Source: Cantharellus purpuraceus
Lineage: Eukaryota; Basidiomycota; Agaricomycetes; Cantharellales; Hydnaceae
Direction: 5' to 3'
Length of the DNA: 64,000 nucleotides
Assembly: GCA_025174535.1 (NCBI GenBank)
Contig: JALBUN010000014.1
Location: forward strand, 372,001 to 436,000
Shown here piece after piece: positions 32,659 to 60,240 of the stretch (positions within the stretch are counted from its first letter, which is position 1; each line of letters opens with the position of its first letter). Both the position numbers and the translations under genes were made by a program. A model generated the notes under the pieces. The model was given only the letters and a program-made list of their open reading frames with translations. It searched no databases and was not told where the DNA came from.

Positions 32659-32671
32659 CCCTCCCCTTTTT
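32659..32671 (-). promoter_or_regulatory. Polypurine tract of the LTR-E element
   Basis: AAAAAGGGGAGGG on the minus strand directly abutting LTR-E copy 1. It gives the orientation of the hairpin-rich element. Confidence 0.6.
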
Positions 32672-33514
32672 GAATGAGGCATTCACCACTCAATTGTACA
32701 GCTCCTTATGGAGCTGTTCAGATGAATCAGTGTCCATATGATCATCTTGATCATATGGCTCTGGAGGGGGACAGCTTTCAGTCATCCCTGTCATTGTGTC
32801 AGGGTTCAAATAAGTCATATTCTATTTTTAGTATTTTCTCTTGACACCTCTATCAGCACAGCCTGTCAGGGTGCGTCTCCCCTATTTCATTGCCCCTATC
32901 ACTTCCCCTATCTTTCCTCCCCTATCTTGGTTCTCCTATCCATCTCCATCATTTAGTATAAAGACTTGCCTTGGTGCAGTGTGATCCCTCAGCTTGATCT
33001 CTGAGGATATCCGCTGTACCAGGTAAGTCCCATGTATTTATCAGAAACAGCTGTATAGACTGAGGATATCCGCTGTACCAGCTGGCATTATTTCTTATCG
33101 GCTCTCACTTATTGAGTATCTTGTTGTTGTGGCCTCGTCATCAGCGTTGCCCTCACACATTGTCATAGTATCCTCATCCACTTGAATGGATGAGGAGGAG
33201 GCAGCCACTAATGCAGTGTCTTGATCAAGGTCACGATCAAGCTGGTCATGACCTAAACACTTGGCAAGGGGGCATTTGGCAGCTTTCTGGGCTGCTCAAG
33301 AGGCTCCTAGAGCCTCTTGTTTTTGCTTACCAATCCTGGTGGGTTGGTTAAATGCCCTCCCAGAGGTGATGTGATTTGCAAACACCTCTAGTATGACAGC
33401 ATGATTGAGGGTGATACTGCCCAAGCTAGAGTGTGAGCTCCAGTTTGGTATGTTCTTTGTGAGGACAATCCCCCCAATTATACACTCCTGAAATAGAAGC
33501 ACAGAATGTGTCAC

Positions 33515-34030
33515 TGTTATGCACTAGGTCCAATTGGGGGTCAGAGCTTGGGTCAGAGTCGAGTGGGGGATCAGGGTGTGTTGTGGGGGTTGGAATGGAC
33601 TTGGCTTCAGCTTATATGCTGCACCCTCACTAATACCTGTGTCCAAAATTTTGGAGACAGAGTACGACTTAGACAGTTTGAATTGGGCTTAGGAGCTAGG
33701 TGTGATTCAATATTTGAACTGGGGAATGAAGTCCCCAGTCAGGCAACTTAAATACATATTTGAAATCTAATAATAGTTACTCTGGTGATGGGTCTCCAAG
33801 GCCAACAGCCTTATGTGAATATGTCTGAGTCCAATGGGGACAGATGTCCAGGTTCCTATGGTGATGCTGATGCATTAATTGGAATTAGAGGCGGATGAGC
33901 GAGATTGACAGTGACAATTGGACAGACTAAATGGAGATGTGATGGTTTCCAAATGGACTATAGATTTCATGTGCATGGGGATCTGAGTGGATTGGATGGG
34001 GATCTGGGCATTAAGAATGTAGCCATAACA
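33515..34030 (-). mobile_element. LTR-D solo copy 1, CpG-decayed
   Basis: TGTTATGCAC...CATAACA on plus, flanked by GTCAC on both sides (33510-33514 and 34031-34035), a perfect 5-bp target duplication. Compared with the copy at 37811-38311, many CG dinucleotides are TG or CA here. Inserted in the hairpin-rich element. Confidence 0.85.
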
Positions 34031-34177
34031 GTCACCACTAGTGGGTGAAAACTTATGGCCACTGGTTAATAATTCCCAGTGGCCAGGAGTCTGGAACAAG
34101 GCCCAGAGGTTCTTGCTGAATGCAGAAGAACCTTTTTTAGGAGTGGCCTTCTGGAGCCACATCCAAATGTCTATGAC

Positions 34178-34734
34178 ACTTGTTCAGAAATACAACAAAC
34201 ATATATATACAACCTATTTTCCTCAACTTTTACACAACACACTTAGATTAAAACTTATTTTCATATTTCAACAATTCTCAAATTTTACACAATATACTAG
34301 ATTAAAACATATTTTGATATTTTGGTATAATTCTCAAAAATAATTCTTTTTTTTCCCCATTTAGTGGTGGCAACTCTTGAGGGAACATCCAAATATTATT
34401 GATTCTTTCTTATACAATACTTGTAACATAATTTGAACTATCTTTAATCCCCACCTGGTATTTGTATATCTAAATAACCTATATAATACCAATTATATTA
34501 ATACATACATTACTGTTATATTCATATAAACAGTTATGTTCATCTCAACTGAATGTCTTATCTTTTAAAGTTTATTAAAATATAGAATATATGTTTAGAT
34601 TTATGAAAATTTCACACATCTGAAATCTTTTAAGATATCCAAATTGTAACTCCCTGGCTTTATGTATCATTGAAATTCTGATGTATATCTCATATACATC
34701 AGAATAGTGTATAATGACATGATTCCGAACAAGC
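34178..34734. mobile_element. Non-autonomous DNA transposon copy 1 (hAT-like)
   Basis: About 557 bp, AT-rich, no coding capacity. Termini are ACTTGTTCAGAA and, on the other end, TTCCGAACAAGC (12-bp imperfect inverted repeat). Flanks TCTATGAC and TCTATGTC match at 7 of 8 bases, the duplication length expected for hAT elements. A second copy lies inverted at 43078-43636, and a lone end (TTCTGAACAAGCG) lies near 40660. Confidence 0.7.
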
Positions 34735-35027
34735 GTCTATGTCATAGAGGTCCATGGTGCCATCTGACTCCTGTTAGATGGCTGGGGGCCCCCTATGGGG
34801 GTTCACTTGTCACCCCTGTATGAGGGCAAGTTTATCTAGGCATAGTTGGTAGAGTAATGATGAGGCTCATGTTGTTGGCACAAGCCAGCAGAGTCATTCT
34901 TTTAATGACTCTGTGCATTGGTACTGTTCATTCAGCAAATGGGGTAGCCAGTGCCTTTTTATGCAATGATACGAACTCAGCAGAGTCCATATTGCATATA
35001 TTGAACCAGTCTGCCCTAATGGGGATG

Positions 35028-36433
35028 TGTTTTGGAACCCGCAAAATTATGGTGTTAGGGCAAACTCTAAATCACCACAATTCCATGAATGAACAGCTGA
35101 GAAGAATATCAAATCCTACTGCAGCACAACTCCAGAAACAATTTAACATTTGTACTTTGGTTACAATCTGTTGTAATGGTCAATGCAGATGATACGCAGG
35201 AAGGTAATACATTTCTTAGCAGTAGGGAATGAATAAGACTTCCAGAGTCTAGAGTTCACGGACGCTTAGGGGTCCAGATATTCCAAAAAGAGGGGAATGC
35301 ACTTAGAGGCTAGAGGAAGTAGGTGGATGAATCCGACTGTCCAACCAGTGACACTCTGAAGTGGGTAACAGCAATGTGTGAAGTAGTCTAGCAACTGCTT
35401 CACACAAGTTCAAGATCCTAATGCTCTGCAAAGGCAGTACACACTAGTAACTTAAACAAAGAGCACTAATGGCAGGACTATCGACAGACAATCTCACCCT
35501 GTAGATTCGTAGTCACGCGAGGTAGATACTACACTCACGCCCAAAGCAGGACAATCACTACTTCGAGTGCAATCGAATACAGTTACACAACTGTAAGTGA
35601 CCCTTGAACTGGACAATCAACAGTTACTGAGATATAGAGGATGACACTGTATGTCACTCTAGTCACACTGATGTGCAAATGATGGGGTAGAAATGGTTAT
35701 TTATTCAGAGGCAGAATGGGCTCCTTTTATATTGTATTTACAGGAGCTGACTAATACTACTGGAAACTTCTACCTATTAATAGATGGAAACTACTGGAAG
35801 CTAGTGGAATATGTGAGAAGGGGGTGGAAGTTTCCTAGCCAATGAGCTGCTTGGATTTGCTCTGACTCATGGCATGAGTCATGGATGGAGTCATAGTGTG
35901 ACTCAGAGCAGGAGTCATAGTATGAGTAATCACAGGAGTCATTGCATGAGTCACCATTACTCAAATAACTTGGTCAATACTTCATTTCCCAGGCTGATCA
36001 GCACAGCTATGGGTAGGCACAGCTTCTATTGAACTCTCCACTGAAAATGGTGTCAGGAGGAGCAGTGGTTGCAAAGATATTGAGGATTTACTGGCAGTGG
36101 TGACCAGATTGAGTTGGAGATTGAAATGAGTCATGTGATTGAAAATGAGTCAGTTGTCTGGGTGACTCCGGCTGACTTTAAAGCTGCTGACATCTGCGAA
36201 GGTTTGTGGGTCCATGTGGGTCCCAAAACTTTGCCCAGCAGAACAATAAGTTTGTAGACTCATTTCTGCATGGAAAATTCCCAAAAAAAATATGAAAAAA
36301 TAGAGAATATTTGAATGGCGCTGAATCAAGAGAAAGCAGCACATATATGCTGATATTTTGAGGCCATGAAGCGAAATTGTACAGTTTCACGACTTTAAAC
36401 AAGATCTTTTAAGGGAAAACCAGTTCCCATACA
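35028..36433 (-). mobile_element. LTR-A copy 1
   Basis: Plus-strand ends TGTTTTGGAACCC...TTCCCATACA, i.e. reverse orientation of TGTATGGG...AAAACA. It carries a shortened TGACTC array (about 35865-35955). It joins LTR-B at 36434 with the same junction as copy 4, forming the left arm of the 2.3-kb inverted duplication. Confidence 0.85.
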
Positions 36434-37341
36434 CTAGCAACTGCTTCACACAAGCTTCTAATGCTCTGCAAAGGCAGTACACACTAGTAACTTAAACAAA
36501 GAGCACTAATGGCAGGACTATTGACAGACAATCTCACCCTGTAGATTTATAGTCACATGAGGCAGATACTACACTCACGCCCAAAGCAGGAATATCACTA
36601 CCTTGAGTGCAATCAAGTACAGTTACACAACTGTAAAAGATCCTTGAACTGGTAATCAACAGTTACTGAGATATAGAGGATGACACTGTATGTCACTCTA
36701 GTCACACTGGTGTGCAGAAGATGGATAGAATATGTTATTATTTCAGAGGTAGGATGACCTCCTTATATATTGTATTTACAGGGGCTGACCAATGGTTCTG
36801 GAATATTCTACCTATTAATAACTACTGGAAGGTTGTGGAAGGTGGAAGAAAGGGGTAGAATATTCCAAGGCAATCATCTGATCTGATCCCTGAATTAGGC
36901 ACTGATCAAGCAAAAAGGAGGGTATTCACCCTGTTTTCTGCACTGGTTTGCATAGCCATGGATAGCCACATCTCAGGTGATGATCTCCATGGAAAATTGT
37001 GCCCTGAGAGGCTGTGGTTGTCAAGTGAGAGATTATTTATTGATCAGAGACATCTGAGCTTGAATTCAGGCCAAATGCCTGGTCCAAGGGTGGAGTGCTG
37101 ACTGTGTGAAGGTTTGTGGGTGCCTATGGGTCCACAACTGTAGCAGAGCAGAATAAGAGCATTCTGGGCCAAGTTCTGCATGGAATATTCCTGAAAAAAT
37201 ATGGAAAAATAGAGAACATTTGAATAAGTCCATTTCAAGTACAAGCACCATGTATATGCTGATATTTAGGAATGGAAAAGTGAAATAGAGCACATTGGTG
37301 CTGCATAAATAGAATTTGATAGGGAAAAGGTGGTTCCCATA
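36434..37341 (-). mobile_element. LTR-B copy 1
   Basis: Shares the downstream part of LTR-A (tract CAGAGCATTAG through the CAGTAACTGTTGATT region) but has a different upstream part, with TATATAAGG instead of TATAAAAGG. The end is mutated (CCCATATAGA). One LTR-A-proximal end is missing, cut at GCAGTTGCTAG. Gag sequence resumes right after it. Confidence 0.75.
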
Positions 37342-37810
37342 TAGACTCTGCATTACAGAGTCAAATTTATTTGATGCATGATGGTGTGTCAGTATGTGTA
37401 GGAACCTACACTGCAATCCAAGGATTGCAGTTTCCAGGGTCCAGTCTTGGACTGCCCTATCTCTACATTTCTGTAGAACCATTCCTGGGCCTCACCTTTA
37501 AGGCAAGTGCCTAAGTACATTAGTTGAAACTTTGTTCTTGATGGCCCAAGAAGATTATTCATCTTCAGCCATCATAGCATTCCTGCTACAAAGATCTCAA
37601 ATTCTTGGAGATCTGCACCTCCTGAGTATTGTTCAGGAGGGGATACCTTGATGCTAGCCTTGGCAAGTACAGACTTCTCTGGGTCTGTATCTTTATTATT
37701 GACTATGGCTACTTGTACTGTGCAAGTAATGCCATTGATAGGATTAATTGTATCCAATTGATCTGGGATACCTTGGCCTTCTAGGGTCAATGGTGCAGAT
37801 TGCTCCCTGT
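37342..37810 (-). pseudogene. Gag fragment, interrupted
   Basis: Minus-strand reading gives a capsid-like segment: SPPEQYSGGADLQEFEIFVA, LGTCLKGEAQEWFYRNVE-type sequence and DRAVQDWTLETAILGLQCRF. It matches the better-kept gag at 59795-60240. It is cut by LTR-B on one side (37341) and by an LTR-D solo on the other (37811), and carries frame breaks. Gag would package the element RNA. It contains several perfect hairpins, e.g. CCTCCTGA-GTATTGT-TCAGGAGG near 37620. Confidence 0.7.
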
Positions 37811-38311
37811 TGTTACGCACTAGGTCCGATTGGGGTCAGAGATTGGGTCGGAGTCGGAGCACGTCGTGGGGTCGGAACGGACTTGGCTTCAGCTTATGTG
37901 CTGCGCCCTCACTAATACCTGTGTCCGAGATTTCGGAGACGGAGTACGACTTACAGAGTTAGGATCGGACTTAGGAGCTAGGCGTGATTCGATCTTCGAA
38001 CTGGGGAATGGAGTCCCCAGTTGGCAACTTAAATACATATTTGAAATCTAATAATAATTACTCCGGTGATGGGTCTCCAAGGCCGACAGCCTTACATGAG
38101 TATGTCCGAGTCTGATGGGGACGGATGTCCAGGTTCCTATGGTGATGCTGATGCATCAATCGGAACTGGAGACGGATGGGCGGAATCGGCGGTGACAATC
38201 AGACAGGAAAATGGAGACGTAGCGGTTTCCAAATGGAGTATAGATTTCATATGTGCGGGGATCTGAGGGGATTGGACGGGGATCTGGGCGTTAATGAATA
38301 TAGTCATAACA
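37811..38311 (-). mobile_element. LTR-D solo copy 2 (501 bp), CpG-retaining
   Basis: TGTTACGCAC...CATAACA with target duplication CCTGT on both sides (37806-37810, 38312-38316). It keeps many CpGs lost in copy 1. Removing it rejoins the two arms of a hairpin, TGCTCCC and GGGAGCA, in the host element, which supports the insertion reading. Confidence 0.85.
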
Positions 38312-38373
38312 CCTGTGATGGGGAGCATCCTCTTGAGGTACCCATTGGGTATCTTACTATTCATGGCAGGTGT

Positions 38374-38960
38374 CTTGTTAAAGGCTGATACTAGGGGTTC
38401 AATGGAGTAACTGGAGTTCAGATGCTAGTGAGAAAAGGGAGGGGACTTTATTGTTCCAGTTCAACTGGAGACAGAGTGGGGGCAATAACTATTGAGTCAG
38501 ATTGAGTGGACTTGGCTTCAACTTGTGTGTTGTGTCCCCTTGGATCATCAGTCTAATATTTTGGAGTTCAGAGTATAGAGTTGGATCAGGGATCCAGAGT
38601 TTGACTTGTCAAGAGGGTACTTGTCAAGAAGCTAGCAACCAAGAAGTTGATGGGGGAAATCTTAGTCAATATATGAACTACTGTAATAGACAGAGAGTAG
38701 CCCATATAAGTATGTGAAGAATTGAATGATAAACTAAAAGCAATAGGACAATAAGGTGGATGTGGAATACAACACAGAAAGGAGTTTGGAGTTTGGACTC
38801 AAGTCCAAACTAATACTAAGCAATATAAACAACAAAGGTTTGTTGTAACCCATAAGAGAAAGGCTTCTTATATGGAGAACAATAATGGAGTTCGGGGTTA
38901 ATGGAGGTGGAGTAGAAGGAAATGGAGATGGTGTCCGGTTTTGGTTTGCTTATGGAATAG
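38374..38960 (-). mobile_element. LTR-C copy, degenerate
   Basis: Reverse-orientation relative of the 601-bp LTR at 54517-55117. It shares the order TGTTAAAGGCTGATAC..., CAGTTCAACTGGAGACAG, GGACTTGGCTTCAACTTG, CTTGTCAAGAAGCTAGCAAC and TTTGTTGTAACCCATAAG. The far end is not recognisable, so it is truncated or diverged. Confidence 0.65.
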
Positions 38961-40789
38961 ATCCTATAAGCCTGTGCACAACAGTCCTAGCAAACAGACA
39001 GTGTATAATGCAGTCATTCAGCATGCCAAAGAACTGTCAAGCCGAGGGGTAGTACTGGGTGATCGGCAAGTGTAATAGTACACTGTGTCTGGTGAGGGTG
39101 AATGAAGAGGGTGCTGTTGAGCCAATTTATAGTGCTCTGTGATTGGAGGATAATGGGGAGCAAAAAGGATGGTCAAGATGGTAGATCATGCTCTGGGACT
39201 TTCTGGCAAGATGGTTGATCATGCTCTGTGACTGGAGGACGATAGGGAGCCTGGTTGAGAGGTACATAAAAGCTAGTTTCAGGAGATGTGACCTCTCGGT
39301 GGTGGAGGGAAATCTGATCGTTGAACCAAGGTACTTTACCTCAGTGTAGAGCTAATGGATTGTGATGTAGAGCGTAGAGTGTAGACTTAGAGCATGGACT
39401 TTGACTTTAGAGCATTGGCTGAATACTTGTTGATTGATTCCAAAGGCAAAAACTAGCACCCTTTTATATACAAATCCCCAGGGCACAATGACACAATATG
39501 AGGAGCAAATGATGCGATATGATGCAAGAAATGCTGATCAAGCCAGCTGATGAAGTGTGTGAAGTTGAACTACTAATAGGGAAATCATGGAGAAATGAAG
39601 CAACAGATAGGAGTAAATAGGAGGTGATGAGTAATAAAAGAACCAAAAATAGAACAAGGATGAGTAAGTTGTGTATGAATGAATTAAAGATGAAACAGGG
39701 GTGAGTCATATAAAAGAACAATAGAAATGTCCACCAATACCATCTTCCCTACAGCTCCAAAGGTAAGTTGACCCTGAGTCACATGAGGACTTCAGTCAGC
39801 ATCCACAACAAATACTCCTTATTGTCTTAGTGATCCGTCTCCATATGGTATCCCGTTCCAAGGGTATTTGGTCCCTTTGCCTGACACGATATAACCTGAG
39901 TCAGATTGAAGTGGGAGGATAGGTCAGCAATGGTGACTGAAACTCTACCTCATGTTCAACTCTTCTATCCATGTTACAATATAGAGGTGAAATGCTGAGG
40001 AATGTATATGGTTCAATGGAATCGTGAAAGAATATGAGATCACCAATGGCATAAGAGAGACATGGTGGGGATCTTGGACATTGAAAGAGTTTTGGAAGTA
40101 TTTTGACACATGGAGGTGGCTTAACATGCCCATGGAGCTTGGCATATTTTTGATAGTCCTCTGTGTCCAGAGACCAGTGTGATGTATTATTAGAAGAGAT
40201 GTTGGAGAGAAGAATAGGATTGGAAGCCATGTGAATGATGATGAAAGGATTGGTGTGAATAGAAGGCTGATAATGATCGATTGTTTTGGAACCGTGAACT
40301 TCAACCTAAACTGTGGTGTTAATCACAATCTAAGTTTAGCCTGAGGATGTATGACCTTTCAAGGCTAGCAATAAGCTTGAAACTATTTTAACAGAGAACC
40401 CAATTAAGAAATTATACTCCGGTGAACAATCACAATCAATGTTGCCACAGGAAGTGAAGCAATAGAGATTTATGCTTGTCACGTGTAGTTCACGCTTTAC
40501 TGCTGATGCAATGTAAAGTCAAAGATTGACAGGTGTTCAAGGGTTCAGATACTTCAAAGGGGGAAGTAACCTAGTGCCTTAGTACTGCAGGTTGAGTGTA
40601 TTAAAGCTAACAATAATCCCTTCAATGTAAAAAGATAGATATGCACTTGAACACTTCCTTCTGAACAAGCGTATTCACTGTATGTGTTTATCCGTGATAG
40701 AATCAACAGTCAAGGGATATTAATCTCGTCTCAAAGAGGTGAGTTAATAGACTGCGTTGTTGATTTATTGAAATGCCCACAATTGAACC
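38961..40789. other. AT-rich repeat-like DNA, unassigned
   Basis: No recognisable gene or LTR boundaries. Minus frames at 39464-39721 and 39901-40304 (109-119 codons) are open but hydrophobic or low-complexity and overlap each other. A small-DNA-element end lies near 40660. A stretch starting TGTTTTGGAACCG (40282) resembles the LTR-A end but does not extend. Confidence 0.35.
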
Positions 40790-41003: not shown

Positions 41004-41559
41004 TCAATGAATAACAATTAATACACTTCAAGTTACTGCTCCAAGTGGGCTTGTAGTGTGTTAATTACTAATCAGTTACTCCGTATTAACCTCTTCTCCG
41101 AGTTTGATTAATATTAGAGCCTGCTGCGCTTGTAATATAATAACTTCTGGCTTCTCCGAGAGTCAATCAAAGTTAAGAGTAGCTGATATAAGCGTGATGC
41201 TTATGTGATGATTACTCAATGCTTGAGTAGACACTGCTGTGTGTGTATGTGGTAAAAAGATCTTATTTATTGCACTGCTTGTATGGGAACTGGTTTTCCC
41301 TTAAAAAAGATCTTGTTTAAAGTCCCGAAACTGTACAATTTCGCTTCATGGCCTTAAAATATCAGCATATATCTGCTGCTTTCTCTTGATTCAGGGCCAT
41401 TCAAATATTCTCTATTTTTTCATATTTTTTTTGGGAATTTTCCATGCAGAAATGAGTCTACAAACTTATTGTTCTGCTGGGCAAAGTTTTGGGACCCACA
41501 TGGACCCACAAACCTTCGCAGATGTCAGCAGCCCCAAAGTCAGCCGGAGTCACCCGGAC

Positions 41560-41905
41560 AACTGACTCATTTTCAATCACATGACTCATTTCAATCTCCA
41601 ACTCAATCTGGTCACCACTGCCAGTAAATGCTCAATATCTTCCCAACCACTGCACCTCCTGACTCCATTTTTGGTGGAGAGTTCAATAGAAGCCATGCCT
41701 ACCCATAGCTGTGCTAATCAGCCTGGGAAACGAAGTATTGACCGAGTTATTTGAGTAATGGTGACTCATGCAATGACTCCTGCCATGACTCATGCTATGA
41801 CTCCTTCCATGACTCATACCATGACTCCTGTGATTACTCATACTATGACTCCTGCTCTGAGTCACACTATGACTCCATCCATGACTCATGCCATGAGTCA
41901 GAGCA
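41560..41905 (+). promoter_or_regulatory. TGACTC motif array in LTR-A U3
   Basis: About fourteen TGACTC hexamers (both strands counted) within 345 bp. About eight of them are TGACTCA, including several perfect ATGACTCAT palindromes. ATGACTCAT is the consensus of Gcn4/Cpc1-class and AP-1 bZIP factors. The array lies about 130 bp upstream of the TATA box. The same array occurs in copies 3 and 5 and, shortened, in copies 1 and 4. Activity as an amino-acid-starvation enhancer is inference. Confidence 0.7.
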
Positions 41906-42031
41906 AATCCAAGCAGCTCATTGGCTAGGAAACTTCCACCCCCTTCTCATATATTCCACTAGCTTCCAGTAGTTTCCATCTATTAATAGGTAGAAGTTTC
42001 CAGTAGTATTAGTCAGCTCCTGTAAATACAA

Positions 42032-42040
42032 TATAAAAGG
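42032..42040 (+). promoter_or_regulatory. LTR-A TATA box
   Basis: TATAAAAGG in the LTR-A U3, downstream of the bZIP-type array. The equivalent site is on the minus strand at 44914-44922 in copy 3. LTR-B has TATATAAGG at the same place. Confidence 0.6.
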
Positions 42041-43077
42041 AGCCCATTCTGCCTCTGAATAAATAACCATTTTCTACCCCATCATTTGCACATCAGTGTG
42101 ACTAGAGTGACATACAGTGTCATCCTCTATATCTCAGTAACTGTTGATTGTCCAGTTCAAGGGTCACTTACAGTTGTGTAACTGTATTCGATTGCACTCG
42201 AAGTAGTGATTGTCCTGCTTTGGGCGTGAGTGTAGTATCTACCTCGCGTGACTACGAATCTACAGGGTGAGATTGTCTGTCGATAGTCCTGCCATTAGTG
42301 CTCTTGTTTAAGTTACTAGTGTGTACTGCCTTTGCAGAGCATTAGAATCTTGAACTCGTGTGAAGCAGTTGCCAGACTACTTCACACATTGCTGTTACCC
42401 ACTTCAGAGTGTCACTGGTTGGACGGTTGGATTCATCCACCTACTTCCTCTAGCCTCTAAGTGCATTCCCCTCTTTTTGGAATATCTGGACCCCTAAGCG
42501 TCCGTGAACTCTAGACTCTGGAAGTCTTATTCATTCCCTACTGCTAAGAAATGTATTACCTTCCTGCGTATCGTCTGCATTGACCATTACAATGGATTGT
42601 AACCAAAGTACAAATGTTAAATTGTTTCTGGAGTTGTGCTGCAGTAGGATTTGATATTCTTCTCAGCTGTTCATTCACGGAATTGTGGTGATTTAGAGTT
42701 TGCCCTAACACCATAATTTTGCGGGTTCCAAAACACTGCTGTTGCAGCCCTTTTTATATACATGGACTATCTAGCTTATGTAACTAATCAGAGAACATTC
42801 CTGGTGCTTAGGGAAGCCCCTGGAAGGAAAGAGAAGGCTGGGGAACCTTGTGGAAGGTCCAGGAAGGTGTCAGAACCTTCTGTGGCCACTTTTGGCTGAA
42901 GTGCATGAACTCTGATGATTATGTAATGCGCGCGTCGTTCGCTCACGTGTGAGTGCTCGTCGGAGTTGAATGACAGATTATATCAGCAACCGACCCCTTG
43001 TGTACACTTGTGGGCTCAAAGACACAAAAATGTGGAATATAAGTACATTCAATAGAACATTTGAAATACCTTTAGAT

Positions 43078-43636: not shown

Positions 43637-44181
43637 ATCTTAAACTACTAAATAATAATCCTTATTTGAAGTAGTTTAGAACTGCATATACCCCAACATT
43701 GATGGTGATGAAACACAAGTTATGATTGATGGCCTGAAGTAGAGACTGAGGTGGAAAGGGAGTTGCAGCGCTATTTAAAGGCTTGATACAAAAGACGCTG
43801 GTGGAGTTTGACTGTCAAAGTGGTTTGATATACATCCTCGATGTGTCCTGGCTCGTCACCAGAGATTGGACTTGGTGTTACAGGATGTAACATGTCTCCT
43901 GAGAGACCTGCTGCTCATATGTGCTGATAACTATTCAGCATGCTTCACAACTATCAATTCAGGTCAACAGCTGTGTTAAGCTCTTTTGATCTAGATTGGG
44001 GAGTTTCCTCCCCAACCTGTATCAGTAATCCTTGCCTTACAGGGATTATTGGATTTATGATTCCCTCCAATGGGGGAATCTCATTTCTTCTATCCAACTG
44101 ATTACTCAGTTGGATTCTCTCACTCCAGGGGGTCCTAGACTCTCTGGATTCATTCTTGTTGGGAATCTGATTGTCAGTGAT

Positions 44182-46156
44182 TGTTATGACTATATTCATT
44201 AATGCCCAGATCCCCGTCTGTTTTGGAACCCGCAAAATTATGGTGTTAGGGCAAACTCTAAATCACCACAATTCCGTGAATGAACAGCTGAGAAGAATAT
44301 CAAATCCTACTGCAGCACAACTCCAGAAACAATTTAACATTTGTACTTTGGTTACAATCCATTGTAATGGTCAATGCAGACGATACGCAGGAAGGTAATA
44401 CATTTCTTAGCAGTAGGGAATGAATAAGACTTCCAGAGTCTAGAGTTCACGGACGCTTAGGGGTCCAGATATTCCAAAAAGAGGGGAATGCACTTAGAGG
44501 CTAGAGGAAGTAGGTGGATGAATCCAACCGTCCAACCAGTGACACTCTGAAGTGGGTAACAGCAATGTGTGAAGTAGTCTGGCAACTGCTTCACACGAGT
44601 TCAAGATTCTAATGCTCTGCAAAGGCAGTACACACTAGTAACTTAAACAAGAGCACTAATGGCAGGACTATCGACAGACAATCTCACCCTGTAGATTCGT
44701 AGTCACGCGAGGTAGATACTACACTCACGCCCAAAGCAGGACAATCACTACTTCGAGTGCAATCGAATACAGTTACACAACTGTAAGTGACCCTTGAACT
44801 GGACAATCAACAGTTACTGAGATATAGAGGATGACACTGTATGTCACTCTAGTCACACTGATGTGCAAATGATGGGGTAGAAAATGGTTATTTATTCAGA
44901 GGCAGAATGGGCTCCTTTTATATTGTATTTACAGGAGCTGACTAATACTACTGGAAACTTCTACCTATTAATAGATGGAAACTACTGGAAGCTAGTGGAA
45001 TATATGAGAAGGGGGTGGAAGTTTCCTAGCCAATGAGCTGCTTGGATTTGCTCTGACTCATGGCATGAGTCATGGATGGAGTCATAGTGTGACTCAGAGC
45101 AGGAGTCATAGTATGAGTAATCACAGGAGTCATGGTATGAGTCATGGAAGGAGTCATAGCATGAGTCATGGCAGGAGTCATTGCATGAGTCACCATTACT
45201 CAAATAACTCGGTCAATACTTCGTTTCCCAGGCTGATTAGCACAGCTATGGGTAGGCACGGCTTCTATTGAACTCTCCACCAAAAATGGAGTCAGGAGGT
45301 GCAGTGGTTGGGAAGATATTGAGCATTTACTGGCAGTGGTGACCAGATTGAGTTGGAGATTGAAATGAGTCATGTGATTGAAAATGAGTCAGTTGTCCGG
45401 GTGACTCCGGCTGACTTTGGGGCTGCTGACATCTGTGAAGGTTTGTGGGTCCATGTGGGTCCCAAAACTTTGCCCAGCAGAACAATAAGTTTGTAGACTC
45501 ATTTCTGCATGGAAAATTCCCAAAAAAAATATGAAAAAATAGAGAATATTTGAATGGCCCTGAATCAAGAGAAAGCAGCAGATATATGCTGATATTTTAA
45601 GGCCATGAAGCGAAATTGTACAGTTTCGGGACTTTAAACAAGATCTTTTTTAAGGGAAAACCAGTTCCCATACACCATCTGATCCACTCAGATCCCCACG
45701 CATATGAAATCTATACTCCATTTGGGAACTGTCACGTCTCCATTATCTGTCCGATTGTCACCACTGAATCTCGCCCATCTGTGTCCGGTTCTGATTGATG
45801 CATCAGCATCACCATAGGAACCCGGACATCCATCCCCATTGGACTCGGACATACTCATGTAAGGCCGTCAGCCTTGGAGACCCATCACCGGAGTAATTAT
45901 TATTAGATTTCAAATATGTATTTAAGTTGCCAACTGGGGACTTCATTCCCCAGTTCGAATATCAAATCACACCTAGTTCCTAAGTCCGATCCTAACTCTC
46001 TAAGTCATACTCCATCTCTGAAATCTCGGACACCGGTATTAGTGAGGGCGCAGCACATAAGCTGAAGCCAAGTCTGTTCCAACCCCCATGACATACCCGA
46101 CTCCTTCTCTGACTCCAACCCAATCTCCAACCCTGATTCGGACCTAGTGCATAACA
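44182..46156 (+). mobile_element. LTR-D solo copy 3, split by LTR-A
   Basis: TGTTATGAC...GTGCATAACA with GTGAT duplicated at 44177-44181 and 46157-46161. The body is interrupted by LTR-A copy 3 (44219-45674). The right-hand target sequence is part of a perfect hairpin (46157-46175) of the host element. Confidence 0.88.
44219..45674 (-). mobile_element. LTR-A solo copy 3 (1456 bp), nested in LTR-D
   Basis: Reverse-orientation LTR-A, the same length as copy 2 and almost identical to it and to copy 5. Flanks are CCGTC (44214-44218) and CCATC (45675-45679). The single difference is CG to CA, so the 5-bp duplication has lost one CpG since insertion. Confidence 0.9.
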
Positions 46157-46425
46157 GTGATGCAATTTGCATCACTCAGAGCTTTCTTGAAGTGATTGTA
46201 GCATTGTTCCTAGCTCTGTAATTTGCTGCCCCATAGTGGCAGCAGCATGTTCTGCTACAGCAGCCATCTTGACTGCCTGAGACTAGTGTTGCTAATGCTC
46301 TTCATCTCATGCTGATTATGTATGAGTTGCTCAGCCAGTCTTGCAATTGACCAGTGGGTTTCATGCTGCTCCATACTGCATGACACCCTAGTAGAGGCAA
46401 TGCTACCTTTACTTGTGCTCATTTC

Positions 46426-46731
46426 TTACACACGTTCCTTTCCTCTAGGAACATTGGAGGCAGTTACCAACTGTCTCCTTCTTTCTTCTCTTATTAGAGA
46501 ACCACTTGATGAGGGGTTCTTGTTCAACAGATGATCTATTGTCTGATCATCTGTGCAGTCTTGTGACTGTGATGACTCTCTCCTAGAGTCTTCCTTATGA
46601 GAAGTCCCTACAACTCCTCTAGGGTCTAGCTCCTCTTCATGGGAGCTTCTACTGCTGGCTGCACACCACCATTCATTGTTTATGATGTCCTGGGCACTGC
46701 CAGCATGACTCATTCTGCTTTGAGTCATCAT
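46426..46731 (-). pseudogene. Possible gag N-terminal region of the hairpin-rich element
   Basis: Open minus frame of about 101 codons containing SQDCTDDQTIDHLLNKN and LIREERRRQLVTASNVPRGK, hydrophilic and Ser/Arg-rich like the start of an LTR-element gag. It lies just inside the right LTR-E in the expected orientation. No zinc knuckle is visible. Assignment rests on position and on the shared hairpin texture. Confidence 0.35.
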
Positions 46732-46919
46732 TATGATGACTCTTTCTCTTCTACTTCTGTAGGCTAACTGAGTTAGTCTACTAGTTGCTCACTTATGTGA
46801 GTGACTGGGAAGATTGGTATATGTCTGTACACCAGCAACAGCTGGTTTTCTAGTACTGGCTAGAAAACTTCAATAATGAGGAAGAATCTATTGATTCTTC
46901 CTTTGGAAGTTCAAAAAAG

Positions 46920-47186
46920 TGTAAGATTGGTGACTTAGTTCACACAAACATGAAACTCAACCAAGTCTTATTGGTTGTACTACATGCTGTACAGTGTGGT
47001 GTTTATGTCTAAGTTTTCTACATGTGGACCCACATGTATACTTGGGTCCACTGATTGTATAATAACATATATATATGCACCCCATGGGCACATATACTGT
47101 ACTACCAAGAGAACAGCATTCCTTAAGGGCTGTATATACATGCACATATATCTTTATACAGTAAGTAAGTACCTAGGGTACTTACA
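46920..47186 (-). mobile_element. LTR-E copy 2 (267 bp)
   Basis: TGTAAGATTGG...CTTACA, same orientation as copy 1, with the same palindromic end (GTACCTAGGGTAC) and the shared GGACCCACATGTATACTTGGG block. It would be the 5' LTR of the minus-strand hairpin-rich element. Confidence 0.75.
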
Positions 47187-47196
47187 TTATTACATG

Positions 47197-47334: not shown

Positions 47335-47336
47335 TT

Positions 47337-53880: not shown

Positions 53881-53927
53881 TAAGTTATACAAAAACTTGT
53901 GACAACACAGAGGAGCTAGTATACAAC

Positions 53928-54056
53928 TCAGCGCAAGTGACAAAAGCGCTATATATTCATAGCTACCTAGTATACAACTGAAAACTATCAGGATACATAA
54001 CACACAACTGAATAGACCTACTCACCTCAGCGCAAGTGACAAAAGCGCTGAGGTGA
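53928..54056. repeat. Direct repeat and 12-bp-stem hairpin
   Basis: CTCAGCGCAAGTGACAAAAG followed by CGCT occurs at about 53927-53950 and again within 54022-54056. In the second copy it is flanked so that TCACCTCAGCGC pairs with GCGCTGAGGTGA around an 11-nt loop. It lies right at the break of the Ppo-like remnant. Confidence 0.8.
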
Positions 54057-54299
54057 AACAAGTACACCTGCGAAAATATATCCTACCTACAACTTTTAAA
54101 GCTCAGTGGAACAACAGCACGAGCCATTCATACATATAGTGATACATGCCAAAACATGATGCATTGCACGTCCATAATTGACATGTGGCTTGAAAATCCA
54201 ACATAAGTACCTTGTATGGCAGAATGAATACTGTTGGATTTGTGACAATCTCCTTCACAAATTAGAAGCCATTGATAGAAATGATTGGAAGTAGAGTGT

Positions 54300-55400
54300 G
54301 GGGTTTGGACCAATTGTATTTTTTTATCATGCTTGGCTCTTTTTTCATGGTTTCACACATACAGCTAGGGACAACTAGAGGGAAATGAGCATAGATGGAG
54401 AGCCATGCATAGCCACATCTTAGATTGTAATCTTCATAAAAAATGGGGTTCTGAGAGGCTGGGGTTGTCAAGTTATAGAATATTTATTGATCAGAGACAT
54501 CTGAGCTTGAATCTGGTGTTACATCCTGTAACACCAAGTCTGATCTCTGGATCTTCATCTCCTTCATCTCCATTCTCTGTCAACTCCACCTCCATCAACC
54601 CTGAACTCCTTTATTGTTCTCCTTATAAGTAGTTTCTTCTTATGGGTTACAACAAACCTTCTTCTTTTATATTGCTTAGTTCAGTTTGGACTTGGGTCTG
54701 AACTCCAAACTCCTTTCTGTGTTGTACTCCATATCCGTCCTATTGTCTTATCGCTTTAGTTTCATCATTCAATTCTCCACATACTTATACAGGCTACTCT
54801 CTGTCTATTACAGTAGTTCATATATTGGCCGGATTTGCCCCATCAACTTCTTGGTTGCTAGCATCTTGACAAGTACCTTCTTGACAAGTCAACTCTGGAT
54901 CCTTGATCCAACTCCATACTCTGAACTCCAAAATATTGGACTGATGATCTGAGGGGGCGCAACACACAAGTTGAAGCCAAGTCCACTTGATCCAACTCAA
55001 TAGTTATTGTCCCATTCTGTCTCCAGTTGAACTGGAACAGTAAAGTCCCCTCCCCTCCTTCACTAGCAGCCAATCTCTGGTTATTCCATTGAGCCCTGAG
55101 TTTTCCAGCCCTTAACATCTGGGCTGAATGCCCAGTTCTGAGCTGGAGTGCTGACTGTGTGAAGGTTTGTGGGCATCAGAGGGTCCACAACTGTAGCACA
55201 GCAGAATCAGCATGTTCTGGGGGTGAAGTTCTGCATGGAAAATTCCTGAAAAAAAATAGGGAAAAATAAAGAATATTTGAATAAGTCCACTCCAGGCAAA
55301 AGCACAATGTATATGCTGATATTTAGGACTGGAAAAGTGAAATAAAGCACATTGGTGCTGCATAAATAGAATTTGATAGGGAAAAGGTGATTCCCATACA
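54300..55400 (-). mobile_element. LTR-B copy 3, split by LTR-C
   Basis: Minus-oriented LTR-B: the end TTCCCATACA is at 55400. The sequence runs to 55123, is interrupted by LTR-C, and resumes below 54512 (TTATTGATCAGAGACATCTG, GAGAGGCTGGGGTTGTCAAG). The outer end near 54300 is uncertain. Confidence 0.65.
54517..55117 (+). mobile_element. LTR-C solo (601 bp)
   Basis: TGTTACATCCTGTAACA...CCCTTAACA with TCTGG duplicated at 54512-54516 and 55118-55122. The start is itself a small palindrome (TGTTACA-TCC-TGTAACA). Degenerate relatives lie at 38374-38960 and 47337-47570, and a fragment of its start lies near 43874. Confidence 0.9.
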
Positions 55401-55485
55401 AGATGAAGTTCCCTATTGGAGGGAACTATAGATCCAGTAGCCCCTGTATAGCAAGGACTACCAATACAGATTGAAGAGGAGGCTC

Positions 55486-56395
55486 TGTATGGGAACCACC
55501 TTTTCCCTATCAAATTCTATTTATGCAGCACCAATGTGCTCTATTTCACTTTTCCATTCCTAAATATCAGCATATACATGGTGCTTGTACTTGAAATGGA
55601 CTTATTCAAATGTTCTCTATTTTTCCATATTTTTTCAGGAATATTCCATGCAGAACTTGGCCCAGAATGCTCTTATTCTGCTCTGCTACAGTTGTGGACC
55701 CATAGGCACCCACAAACCTTCACACAGTCAGCACTCCACCCTTGGACCAGGCATTTGGCCTGAATTCAAGCTCAGATGTCTCTGATCAATAAATAATCTC
55801 TCACTTGACAACCACAGCCTCTCAGGGCACAATTTTCCATGGAGATCATCACCTGAGATGTGGCTATCCATGGCTATGCAAACCAGTGCAGAAAACAGGG
55901 TGAATACCCTCCTTTTTGCTTGATCAGTGCCTAATTCAGGGATCAGATCAGATGATTGCCTTGGAATATTCTACCCCTTTCTTCCACCTTCCACAACCTT
56001 CCAGTAGTTATTAATAGGTAGAATATTCCAGAACCATTGGTCAGCCCCTGTAAATACAATATATAAGGAGGTCATTCTACCTCTGAAATAATAACATATT
56101 CTATCCATCTTCTGCACACCAGTGTGACTAGAGTGACATACAGTGTCATCCTCTATATCTCAGTAACTGTTGATTACCAGTTCAAGGATCTTTTACAGTT
56201 GTGTAACTGTACTTGATTGCACTCAAGGTAGTGATATTCCTGCTTTGGGCGTGAGTGTAGTATCTGCCTCATGTGACTATAAATCTACAGGGTGAGATTG
56301 TCTGTCAATAGTCCTGCCATTAGTGCTCTTTGTTTAAGTTACTAGTGTGTACTGCCTTTGCAGAGCATTAGAAGCTTGTGTGAAGCAGTTGCTAG
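55486..56395 (+). mobile_element. LTR-B copy 2
   Basis: TGTATGGGAACCACC... to GCAGTTGCTAG, mirror image of 36434-37341. It stands head-to-head with LTR-B copy 3 across 85 bp, so about 280 bp on each side could form a large cruciform. Confidence 0.75.
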
Positions 56396-57753
56396 TGTAT
56401 GGGAACTGGTTTTCCCTTAAAAGATCTTGTTTAAAGTCATGAAACTGTACAATTTCGCTTCATGGCCTCAATATATCAGCATATATGTGCTGCTTTCTCT
56501 TGATTCAGCGCCATTCAAATATTCTCTATTTTTTCATATTTCTTTGGGAATTTTCCATGCAGAAATGAGTCTACAAACTTATTGTTCTGCTGGGCAAAGT
56601 TTTGGGACCCACATGGACCCACAAACCTTCGCAGATGTCAGCAGCTTTAAAGTCAGCCGGAGTCACCCGGACAACTGACTCATTTTCAATCACATGACTC
56701 ATTTCAATCTCCAACTCAATCTGGTCACCACTGCCAGTAAATCCTCAATATCTTTGCAACCACTGCTCCTCCTGACACCATTTTCAGTGGAGAGTTCAAT
56801 AGAAGCTGTGCCTACCCATAGCTGTGCTGATCAGCCTGGGAAATGAAGTATTGACCAAGTTATTTGAGTAATGGTGACTCATGCAATGACTCCTGTGATT
56901 ACTCATACTATGACTCCTGCTCTGAGTCACACTATGACTCCATCCATGACTCATGCCATGAGTCAGAGCAAATCCAAGCAGCTCATTGGCTAGGAAACTT
57001 CCACCCCCTTCTCACATATTCCACTAGCTTCCAGTAGTTTCCATCTATTAATAGGTAGAAGTTTCCAGTAGTATTAGTCAGCTCCTGTAAATACAATATA
57101 AAAGGAGGCCATTCTGCCTCTGAAAATAATAACCATTTCTACCCCATCATTTGCACATCAGTGTGACGAGAGTGACATACAGTGTCTCCTCTATATCTCA
57201 GTAACTGTTGATTGCACTCAAAGTAGTGATTGTCCTGCTTTGGGCATGAGTGTAGTATCTACCTCACGTGACTACGAATCTACAGGGAGATTGTCTGTCA
57301 ATAGTCCTGCCATTAGTGCTCTTTGTTTAAGTAACTAGTGTGTACTGCCTTTGCAGAGCATTAGAAACTTGAACTCATGTGAAGCAGTTGCTAGACTACT
57401 TCACACATTGCTGTTACCCACTTCAGAGTGTCACTGGTTGTAGGTCGGATTCATCCACCTACTTCCTCTAGCCTCTAAGTGCATTCCCCTCTTTTTGGAA
57501 TATCTGGACCCCTAAGCGTCCGTGAACTCTAGACTCTGGAAGTCTTATTCATTCCCTACTGCTAAGAAATGTATTACCTTCCTGCATATCGTCTGCATTG
57601 ACCATTACAATGGATTGTAACCAAAGTACAAACATTAAATTGTTTCTGGAGTTGTGCTGCAGTAGGATTTGATATTCTTCTCAGCTGTTCATTCACGGAA
57701 TTGTGGTGATTTAGAGTTTTCCCTAACACCATAATTTTGCAGGTTCCAAAACA
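56396..57753 (+). mobile_element. LTR-A copy 4
   Basis: TGTATGGGAACTGG...GGTTCCAAAACA, 1358 bp, with the shortened TGACTC array (about 56870-56970). Flanks GCTAG and ATGAC do not match. It is joined to LTR-B with the same junction as copy 1, so it belongs to the inverted duplication rather than being an independent insertion. Confidence 0.85.
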
Positions 57754-59133
57754 ATGACATTCATTTGTCATAAATCTCAAGTTAAACAGGTGAAAATTCA
57801 CTTCTCTGTAAAAAGTTTTTCCTTTATGATATCACATATTACAATTCTCTGTATCATTTATTTCTTCATTGGTTTCATCATCATTTATGACTCATTTTCC
57901 ATGTGATTATTAAAATGTATATTATGTGTATAGCTACATACCATAATCACATTGGATTCACTGATTTTAATCCCTTCCAAGCTGCAAACAAACAGCTTGT
58001 GTCAATTTTCTGTCATTCCTGGAATAACTCCTAAACTACTTATTAGATCTCAAATATTTTGCATATCCCATTAGAATATTTCACCATCTAGTTCTATTCC
58101 AAATTATGAACGATTTGGACCATTGGGTCCATTTCTATTAAGCAAATACTTTCTTGAAGTGTTGCTGTTCCCTATTTCTGCTTAAATATTTTGCAGAATG
58201 TCCAGTTCTTAACTGAATCACCTGAAATTCGGTGACAACATCATACTCTAATATATATAACATACAACTGCTCATACATCATCCTCCACACCCCAATCAT
58301 ACTCCTATTTGATTTCTACCCAACATTCACCCCCTGCCTTACACATATCACACTCCTCCTTATTTTTTCCTAATACCCTCAACTGAGGGATCTGATCAGC
58401 TGTGCATATGGTTGACCCCTCATGAGACAATGCTATTTGCCTTGTGCTCTCAGTTGGATCCTCCATCGGGGGATCCTTTACTGAATATAGTCCTTCTTTT
58501 GGGAAGGACTGTGTTGTGGGTAGCTCATGCTTAGAGTTACCCCCTTGGCATCATCTACTCATGCCACTACTCTGTTTTCGCAGGGAGTTTGTACCCCATG
58601 ATGGGGTATGAGGAGCATCTATATCATGCTCTTCATTAGTGAGGACTTCTTCAGTTCCTATCATGATTCAACCTGGGCCATTAAAGTCCAGGTATATTCC
58701 TAACTTTCATAGGAATGGAGTACCATAGTTTATGGTACTCCTGCTCCCAATACATGCTAGCTGCAGCATGATGGGTTGCTCCAGTGTGAAGGTTTTCATA
58801 CCTGTCACGCATGTGAATTCAGGGGATATCATTATCCCCTCACTCCCACTGTCTAATAGACAGTGAGCCAGAGTCCCACCAATCCCCTAGTATCCAGAGA
58901 TTGTTTATCATTGATGCATGGCCTATCAGGTCATGCTGTCGACTTCTGTCAGCTCCTATGATTATACATAGGTTCAGCCAATTTGTCAATGCTGACAGCA
59001 GCTATGTGCAGCTGTTGTGATTCCCTCCTTGTTGGGAATCCTTTCACATTACAGAAATGCACTGCATAGACATGTTTTGGTGGGACTCAATCATTGCATT
59101 AAATCCATATCACATTGGAGCAATACATTGGCA
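57754..59133 (-). mobile_element. Hairpin-rich retroelement interior
   Basis: About 1.4 kb, the second half of which (58400-59130) is packed with perfect short inverted repeats: AGTCCTTC-TTTTGG-GAAGGACT (58489-58510), GAGTACCATA-GTT-TATGGTACTC (58718-58740), AGGGGATA-TCAT-TATCCCCT (58821-58840) and CACTGTCT-AAT-AGACAGTG (58848-58866). It lies downstream of gag on the minus strand, where protease or RT would be expected, but no such ORF is open. Confidence 0.6.
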
Positions 59134-60240
59134 TCACCTCCTCTTCAGGAGCATCATCTGATTGTCCCATTCATAGGGGGAGATTTCTTTATTCCATTCA
59201 TCAGCTATATCTATAGTTGGCATTTCCTCCTCTAGATGGTCCTTGGGATCATCCATTGCTTCTTCATGTTCTCCCTCTGTCAGGGAGAACCCATCTACAT
59301 TGTCCTCTACTATGTGTGAGGGCATGTCCTTTTGGACTGCTGCTGACCTTACATTGCCCTTTAATTTGGGGCAGCTAGGTTGCATGTGTCCTGTCTGGCC
59401 ACATTCATAGCACACAATGTTAATAGTAACATTGTTTGTTACTGCTGTTCACATGTGTTGGTGGTTTTGATTGATAATTACCCTTAAGGGGGTAATTGTT
59501 GGTATTGAGCCTGGAGCCACCACTACAGGGTTCTGGCCTTGGTGCACTCACTTATCATGGGTGCATATTGGGAGCCATGTACACACGTCCATTGGGCATG
59601 GGTCAGCTTCCTGCATTTGTCATACCAGTAGTTCTATTGACTACTAGTCTATGAGTCATGGGGGACACATTAGTCATGTTATCTGGATGTCTCATACCAT
59701 AATGGTATTGCATCACTTCCTCTATCATTTGAGCAGTCTTGTATAACTGCTCGATGCTGCTAAATTTAGCATTGAAGCCCTTCTTGAGGACTTCTTATCT
59801 CAAAGGTTCATGTATTGCAGTCATGAACCTCTTCCTGAATGTGTACACATCTGGCAGCATTATCATGCAGCCCATGTACTTATCTAGATCATTCATTAAT
59901 TCATGAATGGTTCTTTGACTCTGCATTACAGAGTCAAACTTATTTGACATGTGATGATGCATCAGTGTATGTAGGAATCTACATTGCAACCCTTGGATTG
60001 CAGTTTCCAGGGTCCAGTCTTGGACTGCCCTGTCATAGTGTTCTACATTTCTGTAGAACCATTCCTGGGCCTTGCCTTTAAGGCAAGTGTCTAAGTACAA
60101 CAGTTGAAACTTTGTACTTGATGGCCCAAGAAGATTATTCATCTTCAGCCATCATAGCATTCCTGCTACAAAGATCTCAAATTCTTTGAGATCTGCACCT
60201 CTGAGTATTGCTCAGGGGGCAATACTTTTATGCCAGCTTT
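59134..60240 (-). pseudogene. Gag with CCHC zinc knuckle, Ty3/gypsy-like
   Basis: The capsid-like part (60240-59795) reads MNNLLGPSSTKFQLLYLDTC, KAQEWFYRNVEHYDRAVQDW and NKFDSVMQSQRTIHELMNDL, then DVYTFRKRFMTAIHEPLR. After a frame break, a zinc knuckle CYECGQTGHMQPSCP (C-x2-C-x4-H-x4-C) follows near 59412, with an acidic tail. Retrotransposon gag assembles the particle and binds RNA. The N-terminus is cut by the LTR-A at 60241 and the frame is interrupted between capsid and knuckle. The coding sequence contains perfect hairpins (e.g. 59924-59948, 60040-60059, 60172-60194). Confidence 0.8.

Follow-up and report, generated by a model that had tools for sequence, protein, structure and literature searches.

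Short perfect hairpins tile a Ty3/Gypsy retrotransposon family of Cantharellus purpuraceus: extent, ancestry and candidate origins

Why would a stretch of fungal repeats fold back on itself every few tens of bases? The window, a stretch of 64,000 nucleotides from one contig of Cantharellus purpuraceus, had been described in an initial annotation as unusually dense in perfect stem-loops between positions 32,659 and 60,240, and counting confirmed this. In that interval, perfect stems of 8 bp or more with loops of 1-13 nt number 54, against 6.00 in 20 dinucleotide shuffles (sd 2.21, maximum 12); positions 1-32000, under the same control, held one such stem against 5.80. Seven of the eight hairpins originally quoted are present exactly as given, and some stems are in fact longer (46156-46176, 58717-58741 and 44092-44115). 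The interval 59924-59948 was imprecise: the bases there form two hairpins, 59914-59938 with a 10-bp stem and 59933-59948 with a 6-bp stem, the latter identified by eye.

The 27.6 kb had also been taken for the interior of one element. They derive instead from at least two copies on the minus strand, whose pieces are separated by other sequences. One copy contributes a 3' LTR at 32402-32659, itself hairpin-rich (8 stems of 6 bp or longer where shuffles give 1.5; blastn identity 78-81% to L041-L043 and L048), and the adjoining 3' end of the interior at 32660-32797, which matches L043 and L048 and carries an 11-bp stem at 32734-32758. Further minus-strand pieces comprise 3' interior sequence at 33150-33488 with the hairpin 33171-33196 (76-78% to L042 and L048, 86% to L043 over 111 bp), interior sequence at 34753-35024 with the hairpin 34889-34913 (79-81% to L042, L043 and L048), a gag piece at 37344-37811 with the hairpin 37410-37431 (85-87% to L041-L043 and L048), 5' interior sequence at 43979-44171 with the hairpin 44092-44115 (82-83% to L042 and L048), and the 5' untranslated region with 5' interior at 46155-46919 (81-84% to L042, L043 and L048). 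The 5' LTR at 46920-47188, recognised by blastn to family loci and by LTR comparison, has 6 stems of 6 bp or longer where shuffles give 1.7. As it shares only 76% identity with the LTR at 32402-32659, it is either very old or derived from another copy. The second copy, also on the minus strand, spans gag and the downstream region at 58378-60240 (82-86% to family loci) and stops at 60240 against another repeat; its hairpins include 58717-58741, 59268-59290, 59414-59435, 59914-59938, 60040-60059 and 60172-60194. Its gag zinc knuckle of the CCHC type lies at 59365-59415 on the minus strand (PF00098, E 4e-5, above the cut-off; coordinates worked by hand from residues 276-292).

In the seven stretches that map to the family (4,565 bp), stems of 8 bp or more number 37, against 1.02 in 100 shuffles (sd 0.95, maximum 5). 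The remainder of 32.0-61.6 kb (25,035 bp) holds 22, eight of which are copies of two palindromes, and in the nested repeat copies (7,246 bp) each of the five stems is one identical 19-nt palindrome.

The hairpin-rich family is a Ty3/Gypsy LTR retrotransposon. In L043 the domain order is Ty3 capsid, CCHC, aspartic protease, RVT_1, RT_RNaseH, Integrase_H2C2, rve and SH3_Tf2-1, with RVT_1, RT_RNaseH, Integrase_H2C2 and SH3_Tf2-1 above the profile cut-off and Ty3 capsid, CCHC, aspartic protease and rve below it; CCHC passes the cut-off in the window copy and in L042. The LTRs of L042 (683-952 and 8163-8432) are 93% identical, and both have TG...CA ends. The profile search of L043 gave no Chromo match, and the single Chromo match in L042 (nt ~135-296) lies upstream of the 5' LTR and outside the element. 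Dozens of CpG-decayed copies are present in the 40-Mb genome; a search of this genome with the DNA of 57800-60240 gave 69 matches from 40 scored candidates. The copies are old and nested.

How far does the texture extend? In 30 loci of 3.9-5.4 kb (L009-L038), each copy carries 13-34 stems of at least 8 bp, with shuffle means of 0.5-1.4. LTR, leader, gag and pol are all tiled. The initial annotation had placed the texture in the retroelement interior, where it is indeed found, and it also extends to the family's own LTRs, five of the six LTR sequences tested showing the excess. From the leader through gag to RT (positions 500-5500 of L043, a part well covered by copies), there are 11-18 stem groups per 500 bp. 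One hairpin occurs per roughly 40 nt; its stem is 7-10 bp long and its loop about 1-11 nt. The hairpins measure about 23 nt and mostly do not overlap: 2.7% of bases lie in two hairpins at once, against 11.1% under random placement.

Other Ty3 RT loci of the genome show a mild excess at most. Two RT relatives, L053 and L054 (RT identity 34-36%), have 4 stems of at least 7 bp against 2.2 and 16 of at least 6 bp against 8.8 (L053), and 3 against 2.0 and 14 against 8.0 (L054); eight further RT loci together reach 37 at the 7-bp threshold, against 18.8. The search of genome contigs for relatives with DNA returned one, L055, a 35% relative in the MAG of a lichen cyanobacterium, where the excess is weak (9 stems of 7 bp or longer, shuffles 3.6, sd 2.2); it was found at a single place in that MAG, and viral contigs yielded no relative with DNA. 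The hairpin potential of the proteins is raised only slightly, the value for L052 possibly being out of frame. In the open-access literature, judged by titles and abstract openings and partly among the best-ranked matches, no description of such an element was found.

These comparisons bear on the simplest account, that chance, base composition or tandem repeats produced the stems. A few palindromes recur in the window and account for some of its stems, and the stem count of L039 is inflated by a 17-bp tandem array. This account is nevertheless hardly credible, being contradicted by the dinucleotide shuffles, by synonymous shuffles and by the little excess in L053 and L054, which have equal GC. 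Compared with synonymous shuffles, pol has 29 stems against 2.98 (sd 1.65) and gag 10 against 1.07 (sd 1.01). The hairpins of the coding parts rest mostly on synonymous freedom, and few if any homologue-like residues have been given up for them. Residues in the two arms match the 120 listed homologues at 0.63 and 0.62, against 0.65 in linkers, in columns that are equally conserved; in highly conserved columns, the match rate is slightly lower in 3' arms (0.84, n 32) than it is in linkers (0.91, n 97).

The age of the hairpins can be read from the decay of the copies. Stems are kept by position, the same stem positions being common to many of the 30 gag rows. In the gag region, the two arms of a stem have decayed at CpG independently of each other, with 103 of 212 cases concordant against a permutation mean of 107.9 (sd 7.0; the near-identical row L029 left out). 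The hairpins are ancestral and older than the insertions, and their arms lose CpG independently afterwards. It is therefore very improbable that a process acting on host DNA, such as palindrome correction or gene conversion between arms, made the texture after insertion: individual loop inversions in single copies would suit such an origin, but it is contradicted for the gag region by the independent decay and disfavoured by the shared stem positions.

Co-variation of stem pairs among relatives had been proposed as a check. Variation among gag rows and subfamilies is nearly all CpG decay. No compensated pairs were found in six comparisons between subfamilies (118-151 non-CpG pairs each), and among 29 gag rows (30 less one near-duplicate), 3 of 251 non-CpG pairs occur as two Watson-Crick types. 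As there is almost no covariation beyond CpG decay, this test gives structure no support. Arms were also compared with other sites for divergence. As defining arms mainly in one group biases this comparison, both directions were used. Broken pairs numbered 22 (35.5 expected) between L010 and the main group, 19 (30.6 expected) between W and the main group and, more weakly, 22 between L010 and W (about 29 expected, worked by hand), in three tests that are based on a halving argument and share groups. Relative to other sites, the arms have evolved at about 0.6-0.75 of the rate.

Two readings now compete, as the initial annotation had anticipated when it proposed either an RNA architecture under selection or a mutational process confined to this family. 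The restriction to one family holds in that the texture is strong only here among the loci examined, and it is ancestral to the copies; the choice between the two is only partly possible. We lean, tentatively, towards past selection for local RNA hairpins over a habit of template switching, since stem density is alike in leader, gag and RT, the amino-acid cost is little, the arms evolve more slowly and loops ending in A are restricted to the sense strand (74 of 141, against 568 of 1718 chance loops, p 5e-6).

The mutational reading, which we consider possible but doubtful, holds that replication, most likely reverse transcription, repeatedly switched template at short range and perfected quasi-palindromes without any function, while purifying selection on the proteins retained those hairpins that altered no important residue. 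It would account for Watson-Crick stems without G-U preference and for the sharp geometry, in which the excess is confined to loops shorter than about 12-15 nt and stems seldom exceed 10-11 bp. PMC8794818 describes template-switch mutations in RNA genes as separate events, and a few footprints of this kind were detected. In L035 (the place of L049), a 7-nt loop is exactly inverted and the right arm is extended by a copy of the left flank. Among 269 stem/loop-length classes, six inverted loops of 3-5 nt were found; four are 3-nt loops that can also be read as plain complements, and one 5-nt loop is nearly accounted for by CpG decay. A count of more than 50 inverted loops, with none reversed or complemented, was rejected as strong evidence: of 52 classified pairs, 37 came from copies in opposite orientation, 8 were unclear and 7 had the same orientation. 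Only events seen inside alignments are relied on.

Ongoing copying, however, should move changes from arm to arm, and no arm-to-arm conversion was seen in the subfamily comparisons, where compensated pairs are zero, or in the CpG concordance in gag. Hairpins also cover conserved protein positions as often as linkers do, at little amino-acid cost, and A-ended loops on one strand are unpredicted. Near the loop, the C-G orientation is in excess (173 C against 83 G; chance 1295 against 1434), which is opposite to the asymmetry derived for intrastrand switching in PMC8794818 (G-C, U-A), though the bias is reversed at stem positions 7-8 from the loop. Stability does not explain this orientation, as swapping the arms costs no predicted stability (53 against 52, p 0.46).

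Strand and stability bear on a further reading, that the hairpins were selected as DNA, in single-stranded cDNA or cruciforms, to serve, for instance, strand transfer, integration or chromatin. G-U and A-C are equally rare, in keeping with this: broken pairs summed over the subfamily comparisons give 27 G-U and 30 A-C, gag rows 191 and 181, and invariant internal mismatches one each, so that no preference for G-U over A-C is seen in any of the three. Both strands also fold equally well, with no difference between sense and antisense in the fold z-scores of 120-nt windows (means of -2.5 to -3.0 in four family loci; -0.2 and 0.0 in host controls). Against it stand the A-ended loops restricted to the sense strand and the rarity of G-U directly outside sense-strand stems (8 of 172, against 108 of 1032, p 0.017). 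The surplus of A-C over G-U beside stems partly reflects A-rich unpaired bases. No stage of the Ty3 cycle is known to us to depend on hairpins throughout the cDNA, and we regard selection on DNA as quite improbable.

Hairpin by hairpin, the sense strand is more stable than the antisense in 79 cases against 44, which differs from chance hairpins only at p 0.06. Compared with chance stems of equal length, those of 7 and 8 bp have higher stability (p 0.015 and 0.038), and 9-bp stems show no gain (p 0.19). The energy spread is 3.59, against 4.18 for length-matched random stems. Shuffling the pairs of real stems lowers their stability, but chance hairpins show the effect at about half its size. Stable tetraloops are no feature, with 3 GNRA and no UNCG among 21 four-base loops.

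If selection on RNA is taken as the working reading, the RNA genome of the family (LTR, leader, gag and pol) would be a string of mostly non-overlapping local hairpins, and we infer that the RNA of the active element was selected to fold in this way nearly everywhere. Template switching at hairpins may have aided their perfecting. RNA that pairs rapidly with itself over 20-30 nt would offer few single-stranded targets to small RNAs, antisense transcripts or R-loops, and would form no helix long enough for Dicer-type enzymes; the falling number of stems above 10 bp would fit such evasion of dsRNA sensing. The full proposal, that nearly the entire RNA was rewritten through synonymous sites into about 170-200 short perfect hairpins of at most about 10-11 bp, which would shield the element structurally from small-RNA or antisense silencing in its fungal host, is unlikely.

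The texture suggests a second layer of information over the genes, be it RNA shape or a copying habit. If selected, it would be an extreme RNA architecture overlaid on a protein-coding genome across LTR, leader, gag and pol. It would then offer a natural setting for studying what genome-wide hairpins do for a retroelement in RNAi, packaging, R-loops and translation. A mutational origin would make the family a record of replication writing palindromes into its own genome, with the proteins kept by purifying selection. Small-RNA annotation based on hairpins could misfire on such repeats. The many copies make the question testable once active relatives in other fungi are looked at.

The genome-scale ordered RNA structure (GORS) of RNA viruses is structure along the whole coding RNA, carried by synonymous sites. 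The present family resembles it in having genome-wide structure over coding RNA, on synonymous sites, with folding energy below that of shuffles. In the compensatory preservation by which GORS is recognised the two part, as almost no non-CpG covariation was found among the copies compared. Here, moreover, the stems are short, perfect and local, their density and perfection exceed those of GORS as we know it, and the carrier is a retrotransposon rather than a plus-strand RNA virus. With template switching and quasi-palindrome correction (PMC8794818), the family shares perfect stems and, in single copies, loop inversion and stem extension; it differs in that most of an element of about 9 kb is affected, the arms are unconverted and the near-loop pair asymmetry is opposite. 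Its closest counterparts in organisation are the Agaricomycetes Ty3/Gypsy elements with a Tf2-1-like SH3 domain (genera named among the 120 homologues listed include Trametes, Pleurotus, Sparassis, Peniophora and Pisolithus; the proteins P0001-P0020 have 53-69% identity), with which it shares LTRs, Gag CCHC, a protease-like domain, RT, RNase H, integrase and SH3_Tf2-1, and from which it differs in a nucleotide sequence tiled by perfect hairpins.

The hairpin texture of this Ty3/Gypsy family is real and strong. The initial annotation had claimed dense, perfect short stem-loops at 32659-60240; the hairpins it quoted are present in the window sequence, and the region contains 54 stems of at least 8 bp with loops of 1-13 nt, far above the 6.0 (sd 2.2) found in 20 dinucleotide shuffles. 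By the same count, positions 1-32000 hold 1 stem versus 5.8 shuffled. Seven window stretches mapping to one element family (4,565 bp) carry 37 stems versus 1.0 shuffled.

This texture is a property of the element family. In the 30 loci recovered by the gag DNA search of the window's own genome, stems of 8 bp or longer number 13-34 per locus, with shuffle means of 0.5-1.4. In six loci totalling 36.9 kb, the excess was confined to short loops: 67 stems versus 3.2 shuffled for loops of 0-3 nt, 135 versus 2.1 for 4-7 nt, 51 versus 2.1 for 8-11 nt, 11 versus 2.1 for 12-15 nt, 5 versus 1.8 for 16-19 nt, and approximately background beyond 19 nt. Stem number in six loci drops past 10 bp (109, 76, 54, 13 and 2 stems at 8, 9, 10, 11 and 12 bp). 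The best-covered 4.2 kb comprises 104 hairpins with a mean spacing of 40 nt and a mean span of 23 nt; 54% of bases lie within a hairpin, compared with 43% under random placement, and 2.7% lie in two, compared with 11.1%. In the near-complete copy L043, 11-18 stem groups per 500 bp were found from leader through RT (500-5500, good copy coverage), and 0-12 past 5500, where copy coverage is only 1-7. Five of six LTR sequences exceeded nearly all shuffles in stem number; the 5' LTR of the copy L042 showed no clear excess (3 versus 1.6, a fifth of shuffles reaching 3). Folding z-scores in 120-nt windows averaged -2.5 to -3.0, with host controls at about 0. In a further locus, L039, a 17-bp tandem repeat array at 5228-5696 (shifts of 17) inflates the stem counts.

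Copies at 77 and 68% RT identity retain the texture: their stems of 7 bp or longer number 33 and 20, versus 2.0 each in shuffles. In the next RT families of this genome (34-36% identity) and in eight further RT loci, any excess is mild: L053 and L054 have 4 versus 2.2 and 3 versus 2.0 stems of at least 7 bp, and 16 versus 8.8 and 14 versus 8.0 of at least 6 bp; the eight loci sum to 37 versus 18.8. Relatives' DNA at 40-70% RT identity was sought in the contig collections scanned and none was found.

The hairpins are ancestral and are decaying at present. Within 1.6 kb, 44 stem positions were found again in at least 5 of 30 gag rows. Variation among gag copies is nearly all CpG decay: across the aligned rows (L010-L038 plus the window copy), CpG observed/expected is 0.00-0.33 and TG+CA is up 1.4-1.7 fold, and 93 of the 113 adjacent column pairs with TG and CA both above 10% retain CG in some row. 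Strong CpG loss with raised TG/CA is the signature of cytosine methylation decay. Stops within RT copies are mostly TGA. The two arms lost CpG independently (103 concordant and 109 discordant, permutation mean 107.9, over 10 testable steps with CpG present in both arms); host DNA processes thus do not maintain stem perfection.

In coding parts, the hairpins rest on synonymous freedom. Codon shuffling within amino acids reduced pol stems from 29 to 2.98 (sd 1.65; mean 3.04 in a separate run) and gag stems from 10 to 1.07 (sd 1.01). The register mostly places third codon positions opposite first or second ones (24/29 in pol, 8/10 in gag), as in the shuffles. Over 470 codons and 33 hairpins, the match to the homologue majority was 0.63 and 0.62 in the arms versus 0.65 in linkers, and column conservation was equal (0.69 and 0.68 versus 0.71). 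In highly conserved columns, the match was 0.94 in 5' arms and 0.84 in 3' arms (n=32 each), and 0.91 in linkers (n=97).

Selection for local RNA hairpins is our first choice among the readings, held tentatively. The active lineage bears moderate traces of selection. The diverged copy L010 and the main group differ by 22 broken arm pairs where 35.5 were predicted from the rate at other sites (p 0.01), the window copy and the main group by 19 where 30.6 were predicted (p 0.017), and L010 and the window copy by 22 where about 29 were predicted by hand; these three comparisons have groups in common. Covariation between arms did not appear, with 0 compensated pairs in six comparisons, in which broken pairs also showed no preference for G-U over A-C (27 versus 30). 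A terminal A is found in 74/141 loops, versus 568/1718 loops of hairpins arising by chance when the element is shuffled. This feature is confined to the sense strand (an initial T is found in 29/141 loops versus 376/1718). The three pairs nearest the loop favor C over G on the 5' side (173 versus 83; chance 1295 versus 1434). As this bias is the same on both strands, is reversed in longer stems at the end away from the loop and gives no gain in predicted stability upon exchange of arms (53 versus 52), we regard it as unexplained and do not cite it in favor of stability. Both the arm-exchange control and the weaker third divergence comparison (L010 with the window copy) weaken the case for RNA selection and raise that for selection on DNA hairpins instead, which we still regard as improbable.

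Second after RNA selection, though rather unlikely, the hairpins could stem from a copying habit of the element's replication. One copy carries an exact inversion of a 7-nt loop, together with a right arm extended by duplicated left-flank sequence; another has an inverted 4-nt loop, and 3-nt loops are inverted at three stems. Template switching accounts for such inverted-loop and arm-extension footprints, according to PMC8794818. These signs are present but few: among loop cells of the gag alignment, 1/507 was inverted, 0/364 reversed and 0/567 complemented. The pair asymmetry derived for one form of switching in PMC8794818 is opposite to the loop-proximal bias observed here.

The window also contains a segment at 12001-18000 with a GC content of 0.64-0.69, versus 0.38-0.52 in the remaining 2-kb steps, and an abrupt GC skew shift from +0.31 to -0.23. 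A minus-strand ORF at 14499-16169 matches aminotransferase class I/II (PF00155, E 5e-30), and a plus-strand ORF at 15577-16758 matches fatty acid desaturase slightly below the cut-off. Copies of a nested repeat family lie at about 35028-36433, 41280-42735, 44219-45674, 56177-57753 and 60241-61591, each with the palindrome TGACTCATGSCATGAGTCA (35863-35881, 41882-41900, 45054-45072, 56947-56965 and 61076-61094). More irregular GAGTCAT repeats adjoin it, and the cluster could be a binding-site array within an LTR.

At least two copies of the hairpin-rich family lie in the window. The LTR pieces of one, interrupted by other sequences (32402-32659 and 46920-47188), are only 76% identical and therefore perhaps come from different copies; the second is the gag-bearing fragment at 58378-60240. 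The gag strand is the window's minus strand, with CCHC above and Ty3 capsid below the cut-off. In its own genome (40.15 Mb, 50 contigs), the DNA query 57800-60240 gave at least 69 matches from 40 scored of 403 candidates, at identities of 76-100%, most 80-91%; the 3' part of the element gave at least 52 from 40 scored of 230, and the RT protein, with 111 of 1386 candidates scored, at least 128, of which the lowest-ranking ones listed are other families at about 35% identity. A Rhizonema sp. MAG contig (cyanobacterial, JAQYWP010000673.1) encodes a Ty3-like RT that shares 35% identity with the query homologues, probably as contamination from the lichen's fungal partner.

As far as our searches show, the hairpin property is without description for such a Ty3/Gypsy family in the open-access literature searched. 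Apart from it, the family is ordinary. The named homologues, among 120 listed of 479, belong to Trametes, Pleurotus, Sparassis, Peniophora, Pisolithus and similar fungi, and the host is probably an agaricomycete. In L043, capsid-like, CCHC and protease-like matches, all below the cut-off, are followed in order by RT, by RNase H, by the integrase zinc-binding domain and by SH3_Tf2-1, all above it. The L042 LTRs (270 bp, 93% identical) start with TG and end with CA.
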